Source of the DNA: Candidatus Kapaibacterium sp.
GTDB lineage: Bacteria; Bacteroidota; Ignavibacteria; Kapaibacteriales; Kapaibacteriaceae
Direction of reading: 5' to 3'
DNA length: 38,070 nucleotides
NCBI GenBank assembly: GCA_030833725.1
Contig: JAURGP010000019.1
Span: 1-38,070 of the forward strand
The notes under the pieces were generated by a model, which searched no databases, was not told where the DNA came from, and saw nothing but the letters and a program-made list of their open reading frames with translations. The translations under genes and the position numbers were made by a program. Position 1 is the first letter of the stretch. Every line of letters begins with the position of its first letter. Below, piece after piece: positions 6,267 through 37,340 of the stretch.

Positions 6267-6863
6267 CTACGGTAGGTCGCCACGCGATAATGCTTCGGCT
6301 AGCTCAGACACCGTTCGGGCTACGAAGGGGGCTTCGATCTCCTTTGCCCGTTGCTGGAGCACTTCGGGAGTATCCCCCGATCGTAGCGGAACCGTCTGGA
6401 CTGCAATGACAGCCCCGTCATCATAGTGCTCGGTGACCCAGTGGATGGTGATTGCCGTCTCCGTTCGACCAGATTCCAACACTGCTCGGTGAACGTGCAG
6501 CCCATACATCCCCTTCCCCCCGAACTCCGGCAGCGGACCTGGATGAGTGTTGATCACCCGTCCGTCTATAGCCAAGATCACTGTAGCTGGCAACAAACGC
6601 GTAAACCCGGCCAGAACGAGTAGATCGATCTTCCTGGCGCGAAGGAGGTGAATCAGCTGTGACGAGAATTCTTCGGACGCACCAGCATTGTATGTCACCA
6701 CCGAACAGTCGATCCCAAACTCACGTCCGATGCCTGGGAAGCCCGACGTTTCGGTCGTTGTCACCAGGAGCTCTACGCGGAAGTCCCTCGTGCTCTGGGC
6801 GTGCATCACCACCGCGCGAGCAATCGTTCCCTGTCCGGAACCTAGAAGTGCAACACGAATCAT
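6267..6863 (-). CDS. purN: Phosphoribosylglycinamide formyltransferase
   Basis: Transfers a formyl group from 10-formyl-tetrahydrofolate to GAR, the third step of purine synthesis. At 198 residues it is close to the E. coli enzyme (212). The N-terminal nucleotide-binding loop is LLGSGQGT. The catalytic triad is visible as N105 and H107 in VINTHPGPLPEFGGKGMYG and D148 in HYDDGAVI. The glycine-rich loop usually reads SGxGSNxxA; here it is SGQGTIARA, a mild deviation. The ATG at 6863 starts exactly at the first beta strand. No upstream Shine-Dalgarno is strong; a GATCTTTG box lies 4 nt before the ATG (6868-6875), as at kdsD and thyX. It is divergent from the TonB-dependent receptor and isolated from other pur genes. 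Confidence 0.92.
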   Translation of the reverse strand: MIRVALLGSGQGTIARAVVMHAQSTRDFRVELLVTTTETSGFPGIGREFGIDCSVVTYNAGASEEFSSQLIHLLRARKIDLLVLAGFTRLLPATVILAIDGRVINTHPGPLPEFGGKGMYGLHVHRAVLESGRTETAITIHWVTEHYDDGAVIAVQTVPLRSGDTPEVLQQRAKEIEAPFVARTVSELAEALSRGDLP

Positions 6864-6867
6864 CCTG

Positions 6868-6875
6868 CAAAGATC
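6868..6875 (-). promoter_or_regulatory. Candidate -7 box for purN
   Basis: GATCTTTG on the minus strand, one base off TAnnTTTG, with CAGG between it and the ATG. No TTG is found at the expected 19-21 nt upstream, so this rests on the -7 box and the repeated 4-nt spacing only. Confidence 0.3.
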
Positions 6876-6905: not shown

Positions 6906-6944
6906 GTGGAACTCTGGCGTGGAACTCTGGCGTGGAACTCTGGC
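6906..6944. repeat. Three perfect tandem copies of a 13-bp unit
   Basis: GTGGAACTCTGGC occurs three times with no spacer (6906-6918, 6919-6931, 6932-6944). It lies between the divergent purN and TonB-dependent receptor genes, 58 nt before the receptor ATG. No canonical -33/-7 pair is visible for the receptor. The array could be a set of regulator sites, or a slippage-prone spacer that alters expression. Confidence 0.9.
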
Positions 6945-18785: not shown

Positions 18786-19690
18786 GGTTGCGGTTCGTCG
18801 GATTGCGGTTCGTCGGACTGCGGCTCGTCGGACTGTGGCTCGAAGTATGCACCCGACGTCGCTTCCGTCGTTTCAGGATTCTCTGGTTCTTCTGGCCGAT
18901 CAGCATCCAGCAGAAGGGCCAGCTGTCTGCGCAGCGTGCGGTGATCTGTGGTGATCGAAATCGTCTCGTCGAGCTCCACCAGTGTGGTGGTGGTCTTCAA
19001 CAGATCGTCGATCTCACGCAGCTTCGGCAGATCCGATAGACTGCCTAAGCCGAACAACCGAAGGAACTCTTCCGTGGTACCGTACAGCAGGGGCTTCCCA
19101 AGCTGCTCCGACCGGCCAACCATGGCCACCAGCCCCTTTTCAGCCAACGAGTTCACAACCTCTCCGGCATTCACGCCACGTATGGCATCCACCTCGCCCT
19201 TGGTGATGGGCTGCCGGTAGGCAATGATGGCCAGCGTTTCCAAGGCAGCCTGGGTCAGGCGCTTCCGATTGCGTGCCTTCAGCAGCCGCTGCACCAGTGA
19301 ACCGTGTTGTGGTGTGGTCGCAAACTGATAGCCACCGGCAATCTTGACGATCCGGAAGGGGCGGTCGGTCCGCTCCAGATCCGTGTTGATGTCATCGACC
19401 AGCTCGTCGAAGTACCCTTTCGGAATCTCGAAGACGGGTAGCGGAGCCGCTGTATCAGCCTCTGCCGGCTCTCCATCCAGAGGCAGAGGTTGCTGGCCCG
19501 GATGCTCATTGGTGGGGTCCTCTAAGACGAGGATGCGATGCATCACCCGTGTGGTAAGGGGCTCTTCACTGGCAAAGATGAGCGATTCCAGTGCCCGGCA
19601 CTGATCGTACCGCTCCAGCGTGAAGAAGTAGGGTATGTTCAACCGCTCGGAATCGAGTGGCTGTTCGATCGGTGTGGTGTCGTCGGTCAT
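18782..19690 (-). CDS. scpB: Segregation and condensation protein B
   Basis: Partner of ScpA and SMC in chromosome condensation and segregation. 302 residues, longer than the usual 180-220. The winged-helix core shows LESLIFASEEPLT at about 34-46, then ETLAIIAYRQPITKGEVDAIRGV and LLYGTTEEFLRLFGLGSLSDLP, the family signature. A charged insert (about 58-88, rich in E, D and P) lies between the first helices, and an acidic tail ends in QSDEP repeats. The ATG overlaps the scpA stop (ATGA). The tail repeats make the extreme C-terminus likely to vary between strains. Confidence 0.92.
   Translation of the reverse strand: MTDDTTPIEQPLDSERLNIPYFFTLERYDQCRALESLIFASEEPLTTRVMHRILVLEDPTNEHPGQQPLPLDGEPAEADTAAPLPVFEIPKGYFDELVDDINTDLERTDRPFRIVKIAGGYQFATTPQHGSLVQRLLKARNRKRLTQAALETLAIIAYRQPITKGEVDAIRGVNAGEVVNSLAEKGLVAMVGRSEQLGKPLLYGTTEEFLRLFGLGSLSDLPKLREIDDLLKTTTTLVELDETISITTDHRTLRRQLALLLDADRPEEPENPETTEATSGAYFEPQSDEPQSDEPQSDEPQP
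18786..18842. repeat. 15-bp tandem repeats encoding QSDEP in the scpB tail
   Basis: Three near-identical 15-bp units (18792-18806, 18807-18821, 18822-18836) with partial copies on both sides. Units differ by one or two silent changes. They encode an acidic, probably disordered tail at the very end of scpB. Confidence 0.85.
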
Positions 19691-21586: not shown

Positions 21587-22599
21587 CAGAGGTGCCCTTC
21601 TTCGTGCTCGACCCACTCAAACGACGCTCGGATGTCGTCCAGCGAGGAGTGTGCGGCCAGAAGACACAGCAGCTTAATGCGAGCTTTGGGGCCGTTGAGA
21701 TAGTCCGCAAAAATCACACCGGCCTCGTAGAGCACCTTCCCAGCACCTTCGTAGGCGTAGACGTGCTCGACCCGCCCTACTGGGCACCGCGACACCAACA
21801 CTACAGGCAGCCGGTGATCCATCACTCTGCAGAGAGCGGAAAAGACGGCCGGCGTAACATTCCCCACACCGAAGGCCTCTACAACCACTCCCTGCGCACC
21901 AAGGTCCACGGCGGCATCGATGAGGGTGCCATCCATACCGGCATACAACTTGAAGAGCGGAACGAAGGGCGGCAAGGGGCCGATGGCAATGGTTTCCCGT
22001 CGCAGTGGTTGCCGATGCATCAGAACCGTGCGATTCGTGATCCTGCCAACCGGACCGAAATTGGGAGAGGCAAAGGTGGCAACGTCGGCGGTGTCTACCT
22101 TTGTCGCCTCTGAGGCTGCGAGGATCTCGCCCCCCAGACATACGAGAACGCCATGATCCTTGGCCGAAGAATGTGCTGCGACGGCCACAGCGTCACGCAG
22201 GTTACGCGGACCATCCCAGTCGGGCTCGCTAGAATTACGCATCGAGCCAACAACGACCACTGGCATCGAACCGCCCACCGTCAGGTCGAGGAAGTAGGCT
22301 GTTTCCTCCAACGTATCGGTACCATGGGTCACAACAGCACCATCGAAACCCTGCTCTCGGTACGACCGAATCAGCACCGCCAGCTCGGCCATGCGCTCCG
22401 GAGTGATATGAGGGCCAGGATAGGCTCCGTACTCATGCACAGTAACATCGGCTACGTGCTGGATATCCGGCACCAGTTGCAAGATTTCCCCACCCGTCAG
22501 GCTTGGTACCACACCACCAAACGCGGCGTCGAGCGTAGAGGCGATGGTACCACCCGTGAAGATGATCACGATGCGTGGACGGTGTATTCGAGTGTTCAT
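21586..22599 (-). CDS. Asparaginase (type I/II L-asparaginase fold)
   Basis: Hydrolyses L-asparagine to aspartate and ammonia. 337 residues. The nucleophile Thr is T15 in FTGGTIAST; the second catalytic set is T94-D95 in THGTDTLEETAYFLD, with the lysine in SEATKVDTADV. GSMRNSSEPDWDGPRNLRDAV is also typical. No signal peptide is evident, so it is probably cytoplasmic. The ATG at 22599 brings the TGGTIA motif to the expected position; an ATG at 22635 would add 12 residues, and longer in-frame extensions look non-coding. A TATTTTCG box at 22608-22615 supports 22599 weakly. It is the first gene of the minus-strand alr-scpA-scpB unit and divergent from hisC. Glutaminase side activity is possible. 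Confidence 0.9.
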   Translation of the reverse strand: MNTRIHRPRIVIIFTGGTIASTLDAAFGGVVPSLTGGEILQLVPDIQHVADVTVHEYGAYPGPHITPERMAELAVLIRSYREQGFDGAVVTHGTDTLEETAYFLDLTVGGSMPVVVVGSMRNSSEPDWDGPRNLRDAVAVAAHSSAKDHGVLVCLGGEILAASEATKVDTADVATFASPNFGPVGRITNRTVLMHRQPLRRETIAIGPLPPFVPLFKLYAGMDGTLIDAAVDLGAQGVVVEAFGVGNVTPAVFSALCRVMDHRLPVVLVSRCPVGRVEHVYAYEGAGKVLYEAGVIFADYLNGPKARIKLLCLLAAHSSLDDIRASFEWVEHEEGHL

Positions 22600-22733
22600 G
22601 TGTCGTGCGAAAATAGGGGGCCGTATCTGCGTCATGGTAGACGATTTATCAACAGGTGGCCGAGTAGGTGCGGATGCAACGTTGACGTAGCGTTCAAACT
22701 CGGTACGCCCCCTACGTGATCGGTAGGGATTCG

Positions 22734-22741
22734 TAACTTTG
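22734..22741 (+). promoter_or_regulatory. Predicted -7 box of the hisC-hpd-gdhA unit
   Basis: TAACTTTG, a perfect TAnnTTTG match, 6 nt before the ATG at 22748. This predicts a leaderless or nearly leaderless mRNA. No TTG is present at the ideal upstream distance. Confidence 0.45.
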
Positions 22742-22747
22742 CTTCCT

Positions 22748-23863
22748 ATGATCCGTGGTCTTGAACACCTTCGCAACGTGGCAGCGTACACACCCGGTGC
22801 ATCCGTCGAGCAGATCTCGCGCGAGTACGGGCTGACGCATGTCGAAAAACTAGCATCCAATGAAAACCCCTTGGGCAGTGCACCAAGCGCCCGGGCGGCT
22901 GTCCTCGGCGCGATGCAGACTGTGCAGGTATATGGCGATGGTGGTGCCGCTCTTCGCACACGCCTTGCCCAGCACCACGATGTGTCGGAGCAGAGTATCG
23001 TTGTTGGCAACGGTAGCGATGCCCTGATTCACCAAGTGATGCGCACGTTTGTGCAGCCATCGGATCATGTTGTGAGTTCACATGGTGCATTTGTGAGTTT
23101 CTCCATTGCAGCACGAACCGTTGGCGCGGAACCACACCTCGTTCCCTTGACCGCCGACTATCGGTTTGATGTTCAGGCGTTGGCAGCTGCCTGCGGGCCA
23201 GAGACCAAGGTCCTTTACATTGCCAACCCCAACAACCCTACAGGAACCTTCATCCCACGTGACGAACTCACCTGGTTACTCGATCAGGTAGCAAGCACAA
23301 CGCTTGTGATCCTTGATGAAGCGTATGTCCAGTATGCAGCGGCGCTCGCTCCGGAATCGTATCCGGACGGATTGACCATGCTTCGACCGAACGTGATGGT
23401 ACTCCGCACGTTTTCGAAAGCCTACGGACTGGCGGCCTATCGCATCGGCTATGCTGTTGGCAGCCCCGAGGTCATGGCATGGATGCAGAAAACGAAACTC
23501 CCCTTCGATCCAAACGCACTGGGCTGTGCCGCGGCAATAGCTGCCCTTGATGATCATGCGTTCGTCGAGGACACGGTCCAGCTCAATGCCCGAGGACTGC
23601 AGCTGCTTCATGGCACACTAGCCGAACACGGCTACGTGACGTCAACCAGCATTGCCAACTTCGTGATGGTGGATTGTGGCAGCACAGAGGCGGCTACAGA
23701 CTTCCACCGCTCTCTCCTGGAACGGGGCTTCATCACGCGTCCGTTGGCGGGCTTTGGACTCCCCACCTGTGTGCGCATCAGTACGGGAACCGACGATCAG
23801 AATCATCGACTTGCCCACACCTTGGGTGAGCTATCTCAACAGATCGCTTCGAGAATTGTATGA
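22748..23863 (+). CDS. hisC: HisC-family PLP aminotransferase, probably an aromatic or histidinol-phosphate aminotransferase
   Basis: 371 residues from the ATG at 22748; a TTG three codons earlier lies inside the promoter box and is rejected. Fold type I class II motifs: SNENPLG near the N-terminus, [10 protein letters not shown] at about 158-167, DEAYVQYA at 190-197, and the PLP lysine K224 in [16 protein letters not shown]. This is the HisC subfamily, which includes histidinol-phosphate and aromatic (tyrosine/phenylalanine) aminotransferases. Its stop overlaps the start of the dioxygenase gene (ATGA). That coupling favours tyrosine to 4-hydroxyphenylpyruvate as its main job; no other his gene is nearby. 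The gene symbol denotes the family, not a proven role. Confidence 0.85.
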
Positions 23864-26594: not shown

Positions 26595-29042
26595 TTATTC
26601 TACGATGACCTTGACGACCTGTGTAGACAGCCCTTGTTCAATCACGAGAACGTATACGCCAGCAGCGAGACGCGCGCCGGATAGATCGCGACCGTCCCAG
26701 CGAGCCTCGCCCGTTCCGTTGAGCGAGACAAGGCGATTGCCTACCACGGAGTGCACGTGCACGGTAAGGGGCTGCAGGCTAGCAGTGCGAATGATCAGTT
26801 CATCCCGCATCGGATTTGGCGACACCTGCAATCCGTCGATGACCGTCACATCCTCTTCAACCGATGACAACACGCCGTCGCGCTTCAGCGCCACGCGTAT
26901 GTCACCTGCTGTGGTCTGCATCACCACCGTGGCCTCACCATCGCTATCCTGCACGGAGGTGATACATACACGGACGTTCTGCCCCGAGGTTCCCTCGATT
27001 GGCAGCGTAACGTCGTCGGCCAGCGTGTAGGAGGCCGCTGCAGGGCCCTCAAACGTCACCGCCGTAATCTGGTAACTTGGACATGGCACAGCTGCCATGG
27101 TCACACACTTCGTCGGTCCGAGCTGCACAGGGAAGGATACGGTATCAGCCAGCGACCTTGCTACTTCCTGGCCGTTGGCACCAACCGTCATCGAGAGATT
27201 GCCAGCTGCCTCGGTGAATTCGATGGTGACCGACTGTGGGCCAGCACCAGATGCTCGGAAGGTGATCTCCGCTCCCGTGGACGCTCCGGGCTCAATTGTG
27301 AGCGGGAAGGTAACGCCAGAAATCACTGCAGCACCAGCGGGGGTTATGGTTGCTCCGGTCACGGTAATGGCCGTGCCACCCGTGTTCTGCAGCAGCCCTG
27401 CCACCGTGGTATCTACAACATCGCACATTGGAATGTTGCCGAGATCAATCGCTTCAACGGCTAGGGCAAACACACCAGGACCAGCAACATCCGACACCGT
27501 GACTTCTACTTCGTTGCTCGGCACCGTGGCGCACTCATTGATCACGTTCACGTAGTACGTACCCGCGTCATCCTTAGACGCGGCGGCCTTGGCGTAGATG
27601 GCCTTGGTAGCTCCAGCGATGGCCGTTCCATTGCGATACCACTGATACGTCAAACCAACACCTGCAGCCGTAACACTCAGGACCAAGTCCTGACCAACAG
27701 TCAGGTTCGCACGGCGTGGTTGCAGGTTGATGGTGGGCCCTGTAATCACTTCGATCGTCACACCATCGGAGAGTGCCGCAGGTGGACAAGCCCCTTGCAC
27801 TCGACAGCGATACGTACCCTTCTGCTGGATACTGATGCCTGTGAGCGTCAGTGTAGGTTCGTTGGCTCCATCAATGTCCACACCGTTGCGCGTCCACTGA
27901 TAGAACAGGTCTGATCCAGTTGCCGTCACGGACAGTGTTACCGTCTGATCCTGACACACCGTATCCCCCACCGGTTGGCTTGTGATCTCAGGCGGCGTGT
28001 TCACAGTGAGCGTCACTTCATTCGACGATACAGTTTGGTTGCACGACGTAGCCTCGCACACATACGTGCCGGCGTCGTCAGCCGATGCACCAACAATTCG
28101 CAGCACACCAGTGGTAGCTCCAGCAATGGTCTGGCCGTTCTTCTTCCAGGCATAGATCACATCACTACCGTTGGCACCAGCCACGATCTGTGCTGTTGCA
28201 CCAACGCACACTTCCGTGTTTTCGGGCTGCGTGACGAATGATGGTCCAGCCAGAATGGTGAACGTGTTCGTCGTGGCAAGAACGTCACCATTCGAAACGT
28301 CGACAAGGCGCATCCGGTAGGTACTTGCTGGGGCAAGACTCGTAGGAATCGTATACACGAATTGCCCAGCATCCCCCGCCACTGATGAGACCGCCGTGGT
28401 GACGGTGGTGAAGTTGTCGGACGAGACCTCGACGCGCATGTTCGAGATGCCTGTTTGCGTCCAGGTAAGCGTTACCGATGCACCTTGACAGTACGTGCCA
28501 CCCGTTGGTGCCGTGATCGTAGCTCCGTTCACTGAAATGCTAACGGTCTTGGTATTCCAGATGTCACCACCGTTGGTTCCATCGCCGTTTACGGCATTGC
28601 CGGCAATCGCCACGGTGTAGACCCCGTGGGTGTTTGGTGCCGTCCACGTAAAGGCAAAATCAGCGCCATCATTGGCATCGAACATCTTCGTCTGGGTGTG
28701 CGCCAACTGGGTCCCCGTAGTGGAGATTCCGTTACCTGCCTGGAAGGTACCCGATACGGCATTCGCTGGCGACAGAATCGCTAGGTTAAACCCGGCACCC
28801 AGCACCGACGCCGTAGAGTTGGCAACACGCACGGTGAAGTTTCCTGTCGTTCCAGCCTTGAGTGATCCGGGGCCGGTCAGAGTAAGCTCCGTACTGGACG
28901 TAGCCGTACCACCATGACAACCAATTCCACCACAGCCATTTTGGTACTGACCGGTTATACCGTTGGACCGGGCCAACACTGTACCAGTAGCACCTGCAAC
29001 TAGGGCAACCACCACGGTTGCTACGAGGGAACGAAAGATCAT
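26595..29042 (-). CDS. Exported Ig-repeat protein with a choice-of-anchor/Reelin-like N-terminal domain and T9SS sorting domain
   Basis: 815 residues. AAGGAG 5 nt before the ATG supports the start. Signal peptide MIFRSLVATVVVALVAGATG; then C37-GGIG-C42-H43, a CX4CH motif. Residues 45-165 (LTLTGPGSLKAGTTGNFTV, TWTAPNTHGVYTVAIAGNAVNGDG) look like the Reeler-like choice-of-anchor V domain. Several Ig-like domains follow (about 175-520), with repeated C-DDAGTYVCEA, Q-KGTYRCRV and DDAGTYYVNV ends and pairs of cysteines. Next is an ASPM/HYDIN-like segment (LGNIPMCDVVDTTVAGLLQNTGG). The sorting domain is 736-815 (SPNPMRDELIIR, WDGRDLSGARLAAGVYVLVI). It is probably a surface adhesin-like protein, perhaps redox-active if the CX4CH binds haem. 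Transcribed alone. Confidence 0.88.
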   Translation of the reverse strand: MIFRSLVATVVVALVAGATGTVLARSNGITGQYQNGCGGIGCHGGTATSSTELTLTGPGSLKAGTTGNFTVRVANSTASVLGAGFNLAILSPANAVSGTFQAGNGISTTGTQLAHTQTKMFDANDGADFAFTWTAPNTHGVYTVAIAGNAVNGDGTNGGDIWNTKTVSISVNGATITAPTGGTYCQGASVTLTWTQTGISNMRVEVSSDNFTTVTTAVSSVAGDAGQFVYTIPTSLAPASTYRMRLVDVSNGDVLATTNTFTILAGPSFVTQPENTEVCVGATAQIVAGANGSDVIYAWKKNGQTIAGATTGVLRIVGASADDAGTYVCEATSCNQTVSSNEVTLTVNTPPEITSQPVGDTVCQDQTVTLSVTATGSDLFYQWTRNGVDIDGANEPTLTLTGISIQQKGTYRCRVQGACPPAALSDGVTIEVITGPTINLQPRRANLTVGQDLVLSVTAAGVGLTYQWYRNGTAIAGATKAIYAKAAASKDDAGTYYVNVINECATVPSNEVEVTVSDVAGPGVFALAVEAIDLGNIPMCDVVDTTVAGLLQNTGGTAITVTGATITPAGAAVISGVTFPLTIEPGASTGAEITFRASGAGPQSVTIEFTEAAGNLSMTVGANGQEVARSLADTVSFPVQLGPTKCVTMAAVPCPSYQITAVTFEGPAAASYTLADDVTLPIEGTSGQNVRVCITSVQDSDGEATVVMQTTAGDIRVALKRDGVLSSVEEDVTVIDGLQVSPNPMRDELIIRTASLQPLTVHVHSVVGNRLVSLNGTGEARWDGRDLSGARLAAGVYVLVIEQGLSTQVVKVIVE

Positions 29043-29102
29043 AGGGACTCCTTACTGAATAAAATGCAGCTGCAACAGGATAAACTAACCATTACACTGC
29101 GG

Positions 29103-36501: not shown

Positions 36502-37340
36502 GACCTGAGAGCTTCGAGTTTAGCGATAAACTCCCGTGCCTCGCGCCCCTTCAACCCAAAGACTGCAAGCTCCTCCTCGGAGGGTGCAGATCCAATGATC
36601 GACGCCAGTGCTCGAAGTTCAGGACCAGAGAACCGCTCAGCGTTGACGAGGTAATCTTCAAAGGCCTCGTAGGCCATCGGTACAGCAGCTTTGACAATGG
36701 CTGCAAGCGCCTCGCCATACACGCGAATCTCGTACTGCGCATGACTATCAATGCGCAAACGCAGGAAATGAAACAGGTTGTGCAGATCGATCTTCCAGTA
36801 CCACTCTGTGTAGTTGGAGACGGGAAGATTGATGCGTGCGATTTCCCGCGCAAGGTTCGTTCCCAGCAGGTCCTGGTACTCGTCGTAAAGCGCCTGCTGT
36901 GTGTGCAGCATCGTTGCACGGATGCGCTCGGCAGTGGGCGTGTCGAAGGCTTCGTCCGCCCGCCCCTGCTTGTTCGAATCGCTCTGGGCGCGCACTTGAT
37001 CTGGTGCAGGCAGGTAGAACTCATCCTTCATCTCAGAGTACCGACCAGAGTACTCATTCACGTTCGCCGTGCGATGGCGGATCCACTGCCGCGCAACGAA
37101 GATTGGCAGTTTCACATGGAACTTGAACTCCACCATTTCGAACGGTGTGGTGTGGAGGTGGCGCATCAAGTAACGAATCAGTCCGCGGTCTTCGTGGACC
37201 TTCTTCGTCCCCGAACCATAGGACACGCGTGCAGCTTGCACGATGGCGGCATCGTCGCCCATCACGTCGATCAGGCGAACGAAACCTTTGTCCAAACAGG
37301 GAAACTCCTTCCCAACGAGCGCTTGTACCTCTTCTGTCAT
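36498..37340 (-). CDS. thyX: FAD-dependent thymidylate synthase
   Basis: Makes dTMP from dUMP using methylene-tetrahydrofolate, NADPH and FAD. 280 residues from the ATG at 37340, where family homology begins; an ATG at 37439 would overlap the upstream gene by 73 nt and cover the promoter box. The ThyX motif RHRX7S is R88-H-R90 to S98 (RHRTANVNEYS). GRYSEMKDEFYLP and LPVSNYTEWYWKIDLHNLFHFL are typical, the latter supplying FAD and dUMP contacts. No thyA is in the window. The box TATCTTTG lies 4 nt before the ATG, predicting a leaderless mRNA. The stop overlaps the peroxidase start. Confidence 0.95.
   Translation of the reverse strand: MTEEVQALVGKEFPCLDKGFVRLIDVMGDDAAIVQAARVSYGSGTKKVHEDRGLIRYLMRHLHTTPFEMVEFKFHVKLPIFVARQWIRHRTANVNEYSGRYSEMKDEFYLPAPDQVRAQSDSNKQGRADEAFDTPTAERIRATMLHTQQALYDEYQDLLGTNLAREIARINLPVSNYTEWYWKIDLHNLFHFLRLRIDSHAQYEIRVYGEALAAIVKAAVPMAYEAFEDYLVNAERFSGPELRALASIIGSAPSEEELAVFGLKGREAREFIAKLEALRS

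Follow-up and report, generated by a model that had tools for sequence, protein, structure and literature searches.

Bacteroidota are the textbook phylum without Shine–Dalgarno (SD) sites. The Bacteroidota sigma-ABfr promoter carries a TAnnTTTG box, and in Flavobacterium johnsoniae the G of this box lies at -5, transcription starts 4 or 5 nt past the box and a -33 element is weak and much less evident (PMC6847099). Leaderless mRNAs were rare in dRNA-seq studies of Bacteroides and Flavobacterium, with 5' UTRs shorter than 10 nt making up ~3.7% in Bacteroides thetaiotaomicron and leaderless transcripts 5.5% in Flavobacterium psychrophilum. A 2017 survey found base biases that suggest leaderless starts and/or the use of ribosomal protein S1 in Bacteroidetes and Chlorobi (PMC5397173), and another survey, which tabulates anti-SD types by class, lists Ignavibacteria at 32 (PMC10783764). 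The leaderless mRNAs of Actinobacteria and Deinococcus-Thermus have a -10-like element whose short distance to the start codon is fixed, lack an SD site and occur alongside SD-led genes; the survey describing them detects only Pribnow-like signals and reported leaderless genes in 1 of 37 Bacteroidetes/Chlorobi genomes (PMC3160421).

Here we describe a Kapaibacteria genome in which the Bacteroidota box recurs directly before start codons. The -7 box and leaderless genes are both already known; a literature search on Kapaibacteria, covering leaderless genes and transcription starts with most subscription journals outside its range, returned nothing relevant. The arrangement shares with the sigma-ABfr promoter its box and its sigma architecture (regions 1.2-4 without 1.1), but differs in favouring G before TA, in showing no visible -33 element and in placing a far larger share of boxes at the start codon. 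It resembles the actinobacterial and Deinococcus-Thermus type in its short fixed spacing, its lack of SD sites and its coexistence with SD-led genes, but uses the Bacteroidota box instead of the Pribnow box. The leaderless minority of B. thetaiotaomicron and F. psychrophilum belongs to the same promoter class and starts at the ATG, whereas here the predicted leaderless class reaches ~23-42% of recognisable boxed promoters (two genomes) and SD is retained.

Boxes beside start codons

The window, meaning the whole stretch of DNA analysed, is a complete contig of 38,070 bases from a 1.98-Mb genome (98% complete, ~56% G+C). The closest matches to its thyX come from genomes labelled Candidatus Kapaibacterium or Ignavibacteria, which places it in the Kapaibacteria, inside the broader Bacteroidota group. 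Gene-level analyses used 835 kb of stretches from this genome (G000; ~42% of it, 602 genes), and comparison genomes were sampled at 400-800 kb each; genes were called with a simple in-house finder that misses small genes. The first-pass annotation had proposed six leaderless genes in the window, each with a TAnnTTTG-like box 4-8 nt before its start codon, and had set them against SD-led genes. All six boxes were found in the sequence at those spacings, as were leadered and SD-led examples:

6868-6875, minus strand: purN box GATCTTTG, 4 nt before ATG (6861-6863); P=0.94 in the start model; 7.6 bits
37345-37352, minus strand: thyX box TATCTTTG, 4 nt before ATG (37338-37340); P=1.0; 12.0 bits
22734-22741, plus strand: hisC box TAACTTTG, 6 nt before ATG 22748; P=0.99; 11.9 bits
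14550-14557, plus strand: nif3 box TAAATTCG, 7 nt before ATG 14565; P=0.89; 9.7 bits
1346-1353, minus strand: kdsD (SIS-CBS protein) box GAACTTTG, 4 nt before ATG (1339-1341); P=0.62
22608-22615, minus strand: asparaginase box TATTTTCG, 8 nt before ATG 22599 and 38 nt before GTG 22569; 10.9 bits
32275-32282, plus strand: secA box TAATTTTG, a leadered example, 37 nt before ATG 32320; 12.2 bits
14499-14506, minus strand: box TAACTTTG of the 14475-13705 gene, a leadered example, 23 nt before ATG; 11.9 bits
20443-20449, minus strand: scpA SD site GGAGAGG, GTG start 20436, without a box; P SD=0.85
29048-29053, minus strand: SD site AAGGAG of an Ig-domain protein gene, ATG 29042, without a box; P SD=0.85

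The leaderless assignment was firm for thyX, hisC and nif3 and probable for purN, whose strand order is GATCTTTG-CAGG-ATG and whose predicted transcription start is the ATG itself or a position at most 1 nt from it. It was weak for kdsD, where the box scored <6 bits in the matrix scan and a chance match is still possible for this gene alone. The asparaginase gene was dropped as a leaderless candidate in this genome: the 8-nt gap to its ATG falls in a zone without genome-wide excess and relatives favour the GTG start, so GTG 22569 is probably the true start and the gene leadered.

The window also holds two tandem repeats: the 13-mer GTGGAACTCTGGC in three perfect copies (6906-6944), in the region that separates purN from a divergently oriented TonB-dependent receptor gene, and an imperfect 15-base repeat (18789-18842; 3.6 copies) at the 3' end of scpB.

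Across the whole genome, the pattern TANNTTTGN{3,6}ATG had 102 matches, compared with 28 for the reversed-pattern control, and the TAnnTTTG box had 18 matches at 13-16 nt and 17 at 19-22 nt before ATG. The genome-wide count suggested by the first-pass annotation thus came out in its favour, with a sharp excess over controls at 3-7 nt and none at 8-20 nt; the contrary outcome, no excess at this spacing, was looked for and not seen. Around gene starts in the 835-kb sample, boxes 3-7 nt before ATGs numbered 24 in frame and 0 out of frame, the in-frame boxes being distributed as 3, 10, 6, 4 and 1 over gaps of 3, 4, 5, 6 and 7 nt. The peak was also present among genes with a single possible start. 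Unsupervised motif search over the 602 genes, run by EM from random upstream seeds with an order-2 background (under a single-base background the leading motif was coding-periodic noise), returned GTAtcTTT at a distance of 5 nt from the start, which is equivalent to TAnnTTTG at 4 nt, together with aGGAGga. Since random seeds converged on both, the genome has both signals.

Two spacing classes and their translation signals

The choice of starts relied only on coding potential and the start codon, without any upstream signal, and upstream regions were then scanned with a box matrix (cut-off for spacing counts, ≥9 bits). In the G000 sample, 30 matches fell within 3-7 nt of the start, where dinucleotide shuffles predict 0.9, and 68 lay 21-60 nt before it (7.3 expected), while the 8-20 nt zone between them showed no excess (2 seen, 2.7 expected). 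Because the matrix had been learned from the same genes, the scan was repeated on a relative outside the training set (G101), giving 40, 3 and 58 matches in the three zones. The plain consensus TAnnTTTG, which is independent of the window's genome, gave 17, 3 and 43 near, middle and far boxes in the G000 sample and 14, 2 and 16 in G101 (400 kb). Near and far boxes have almost identical base profiles. About two-thirds to three-quarters of boxed promoters in the window's genome are leadered, as at secA (37 nt), and ~38-80 of the 602 sampled genes are predicted to be leaderless, depending on the threshold.

The strict near-box fraction was highest in divergently placed genes (20/158); where the upstream gene was co-directional, it was 7/191 at distances <20 nt and 2/116 at ≥60 nt. 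Near boxes also preceded 10 of 94 genes with co-directional gaps of 20-60 nt, and since some near boxes sit between co-directional genes, these may be secondary promoters. The first three bases following far boxes in the G000 sample were non-random: a pyrimidine, a purine and then G (52%). This may reflect a discriminator or a start-site preference.

SD usage separated the two classes. Matches of ≥4 nt preceded 5-8% of near-box genes and 36-38% of far-box genes, with 18-19% in shuffled sequence, and the SD core stood at 22% against 8% in shuffled sequence. The contrast drawn by the first-pass annotation therefore holds across the sampled genes (5% versus 36%) as well as for scpA and the gene at 29042, both called SD-led at 0.85. 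ATG was the start codon in 37/38 near-box, 75/80 far-box and 402/484 other genes, without a clear contrast between near and far. A 16S rRNA gene was looked for in the window's own assembly and not found, so a same-genus relative (G059) was used for the anti-SD; its 16S ends in CACCTCCTTTC, an intact anti-SD. Given that SD is also used, the genome is mixed.

The genome encodes a 287-aa sigma factor with Pfam regions 1.2, 2, 3 and 4 and without region 1.1; no other sigma factor detected in the genome has a region 3 domain. Homologues with 59-95% identity were present in 41/41 phylum genomes examined, the window's genome included. The box consensus here is GTAtcTTTG, with G directly before TA in ~60-74% of boxes. 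No signal for a TTTG element near -33 appeared upstream of aligned boxes in the G000 sample; as this element is weak in F. johnsoniae too, we did not take it as a defining feature.

Conservation in the family and distribution across the phylum

Conservation differed among the six genes. For thyX, the exact box stood 3-7 nt before the start in 13 of 80 relatives (0.26 expected from shuffles), all 13 falling within the 16 best matches, and several relatives have no in-frame start upstream, which makes the box there non-coding. For hisC, an exact box at 3-7 nt was present in 17/19 family relatives (~0 expected), and nif3 retained a looser TAnnTTnG at 3-7 nt in 17/22 (0.3 expected). Orthologues carrying conserved boxes were mostly 50-80% identical, and all three proteins align from residue 1 with the ATG retained in relatives. 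For kdsD, an exact box occurred in 2 relatives, and the closest relative (G152) has exact TATCTTTG 5 nt before the ATG. No relative had an exact box at purN; GATCTTTG was kept only in G152, 6 nt before an in-frame ATG, and we rejected it as a conserved element beyond that genome.

Two facing boxes in the divergent region between hisC and the asparaginase gene (window 22570-22748) were kept in nearly all family relatives. The box facing the asparaginase gene was found in all 18 relatives, at 22-33 nt from the likely start in most of them and at 4 nt in three, so that the gene appears to have switched between leaderless and leadered spacings over evolution. More generally, orthologues in G000 and G101 agreed only modestly in their predicted leaderless state, which was common to both in 5 cases and unshared in 9 and 14 (odds ratio 5, p=0.016).

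We compared box frequencies at 3-6 nt and 13-16 nt in 85 tabulated genomes out of 148 searched. The ratio was 2.3-5.7 in all nine genomes of the window's family and had a median of 1.24 outside it, with a few other lineages >1.5. Smaller 3-6 nt excesses occurred elsewhere in the phylum (G072, 128 versus 54; G115, 162 versus 85; G041, 334 versus 213), for which reason we do not claim that the pattern is exclusive to the family; lineages rich in leaderless genes may have more than one origin. Measured with the plain box, near boxes accounted for 23% of excess boxed promoters in G000, 42% in G101 and 5% in G025 (400 kb), shares that are rough given near-box counts of 17, 14 and 4, respectively. 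G025 is a 34% G+C phylum member whose boxes peak at 17-25 nt, and its 5% agrees with the published ~3.7% and 5.5%. Unlike G025, the G033 sample showed no TAnnTTTG excess at leadered distances, which makes it uninformative as a control; its main promoter may be different or the sample atypical.

A probable single promoter at two distances

Near and far boxes are, very probably, both sigma promoters, the near ones giving leaderless mRNAs and the far ones leaders capable of holding an SD site. The boxes would be -7 elements of the housekeeping sigma factor of the Bacteroidota type. With a transcription start 4-5 nt after the box, as in Flavobacterium, the near class would be leaderless and the far class would have leaders of ~17 nt or more; a 4-nt gap would put +1 on the A of the ATG. 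RNA polymerase directed by a box ending 3-7 nt before the ATG would thus start at that A or at most ~3 nt upstream, and the ribosome would recognise the 5'-terminal AUG with initiator tRNA and without an SD site. From a box at least 21 nt upstream, the same promoter would yield a leader long enough for an SD site, and leaders of ~4-16 nt, corresponding to the empty 8-20 nt box zone, would be avoided. The box with its sharp spacing, the empty zone, the missing SD sites and the conservation are direct observations; where precisely transcription begins and how the ribosome binds are inferred, with the start distance carried over from another taxonomic class. The first-pass prediction that transcripts start at or near the ATG gains support, because the excess is sharp at 3-7 nt, the published start distance fits and a matching sigma factor is present.

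The near box could instead be a translation signal, acting in ribosome binding without SD or in a Kozak-like way, within a longer leader whose transcription starts elsewhere. Bacteroidota do have AT-rich non-SD start regions with Kozak-like bases (PMC6847099, PMC9581028), and the near box does adjoin the start, but the same box with its extended G recurs at 21-60 nt and not at 8-20 nt, as expected of a promoter but not of a ribosome signal. It also matches the published sigma-A -7 element and is commonest in divergent genes and scarce where a co-directional gene lies <20 nt or ≥60 nt upstream, and we consider a translation signal highly unlikely.

There is a still slimmer chance that the near ATGs are false starts, with true translation starts further downstream behind normal leaders. 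Start codons did come from a simple coding model, and the asparaginase gene is one such case; against this, the peak persists among single-start genes and under a signal-free choice of starts, out-of-frame ATGs show no peak, and thyX, hisC and nif3 keep their ATG and align with relatives from residue 1. Chance and base composition, given that TTTG and ATG are both common near starts, would be a third reading, favoured by single boxes such as those of kdsD and purN, which are weak and poorly conserved. For the box class as a whole, a chance origin is contradicted by an excess ~31-fold above dinucleotide shuffles and 5.7-fold above the same box at another spacing, and by conservation among orthologues mostly 50-80% identical; we give such an origin next to no weight.

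Taking near and far boxes as one sigma promoter at two distances, we think it likely that Kapaibacteria operate a dual start system, in which a single sigma-A promoter sits on the start codon (leaderless, about a quarter to 40% of boxed promoters) or at a distance that leaves room for an SD leader, leaders of ~4-16 nt are excluded and genes change from one state to the other in the course of evolution, the asparaginase gene being an example. Earlier leaderless surveys, tuned to Pribnow-like boxes, would overlook the TAnnTTTG type. Because the box would mark the starts of transcription and translation together, it could correct gene starts and, for genomes recovered solely through metagenomics, predict transcription units. 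A related lineage with both leaderless and SD starts would offer an intermediate stage in which to study the loss of SD.
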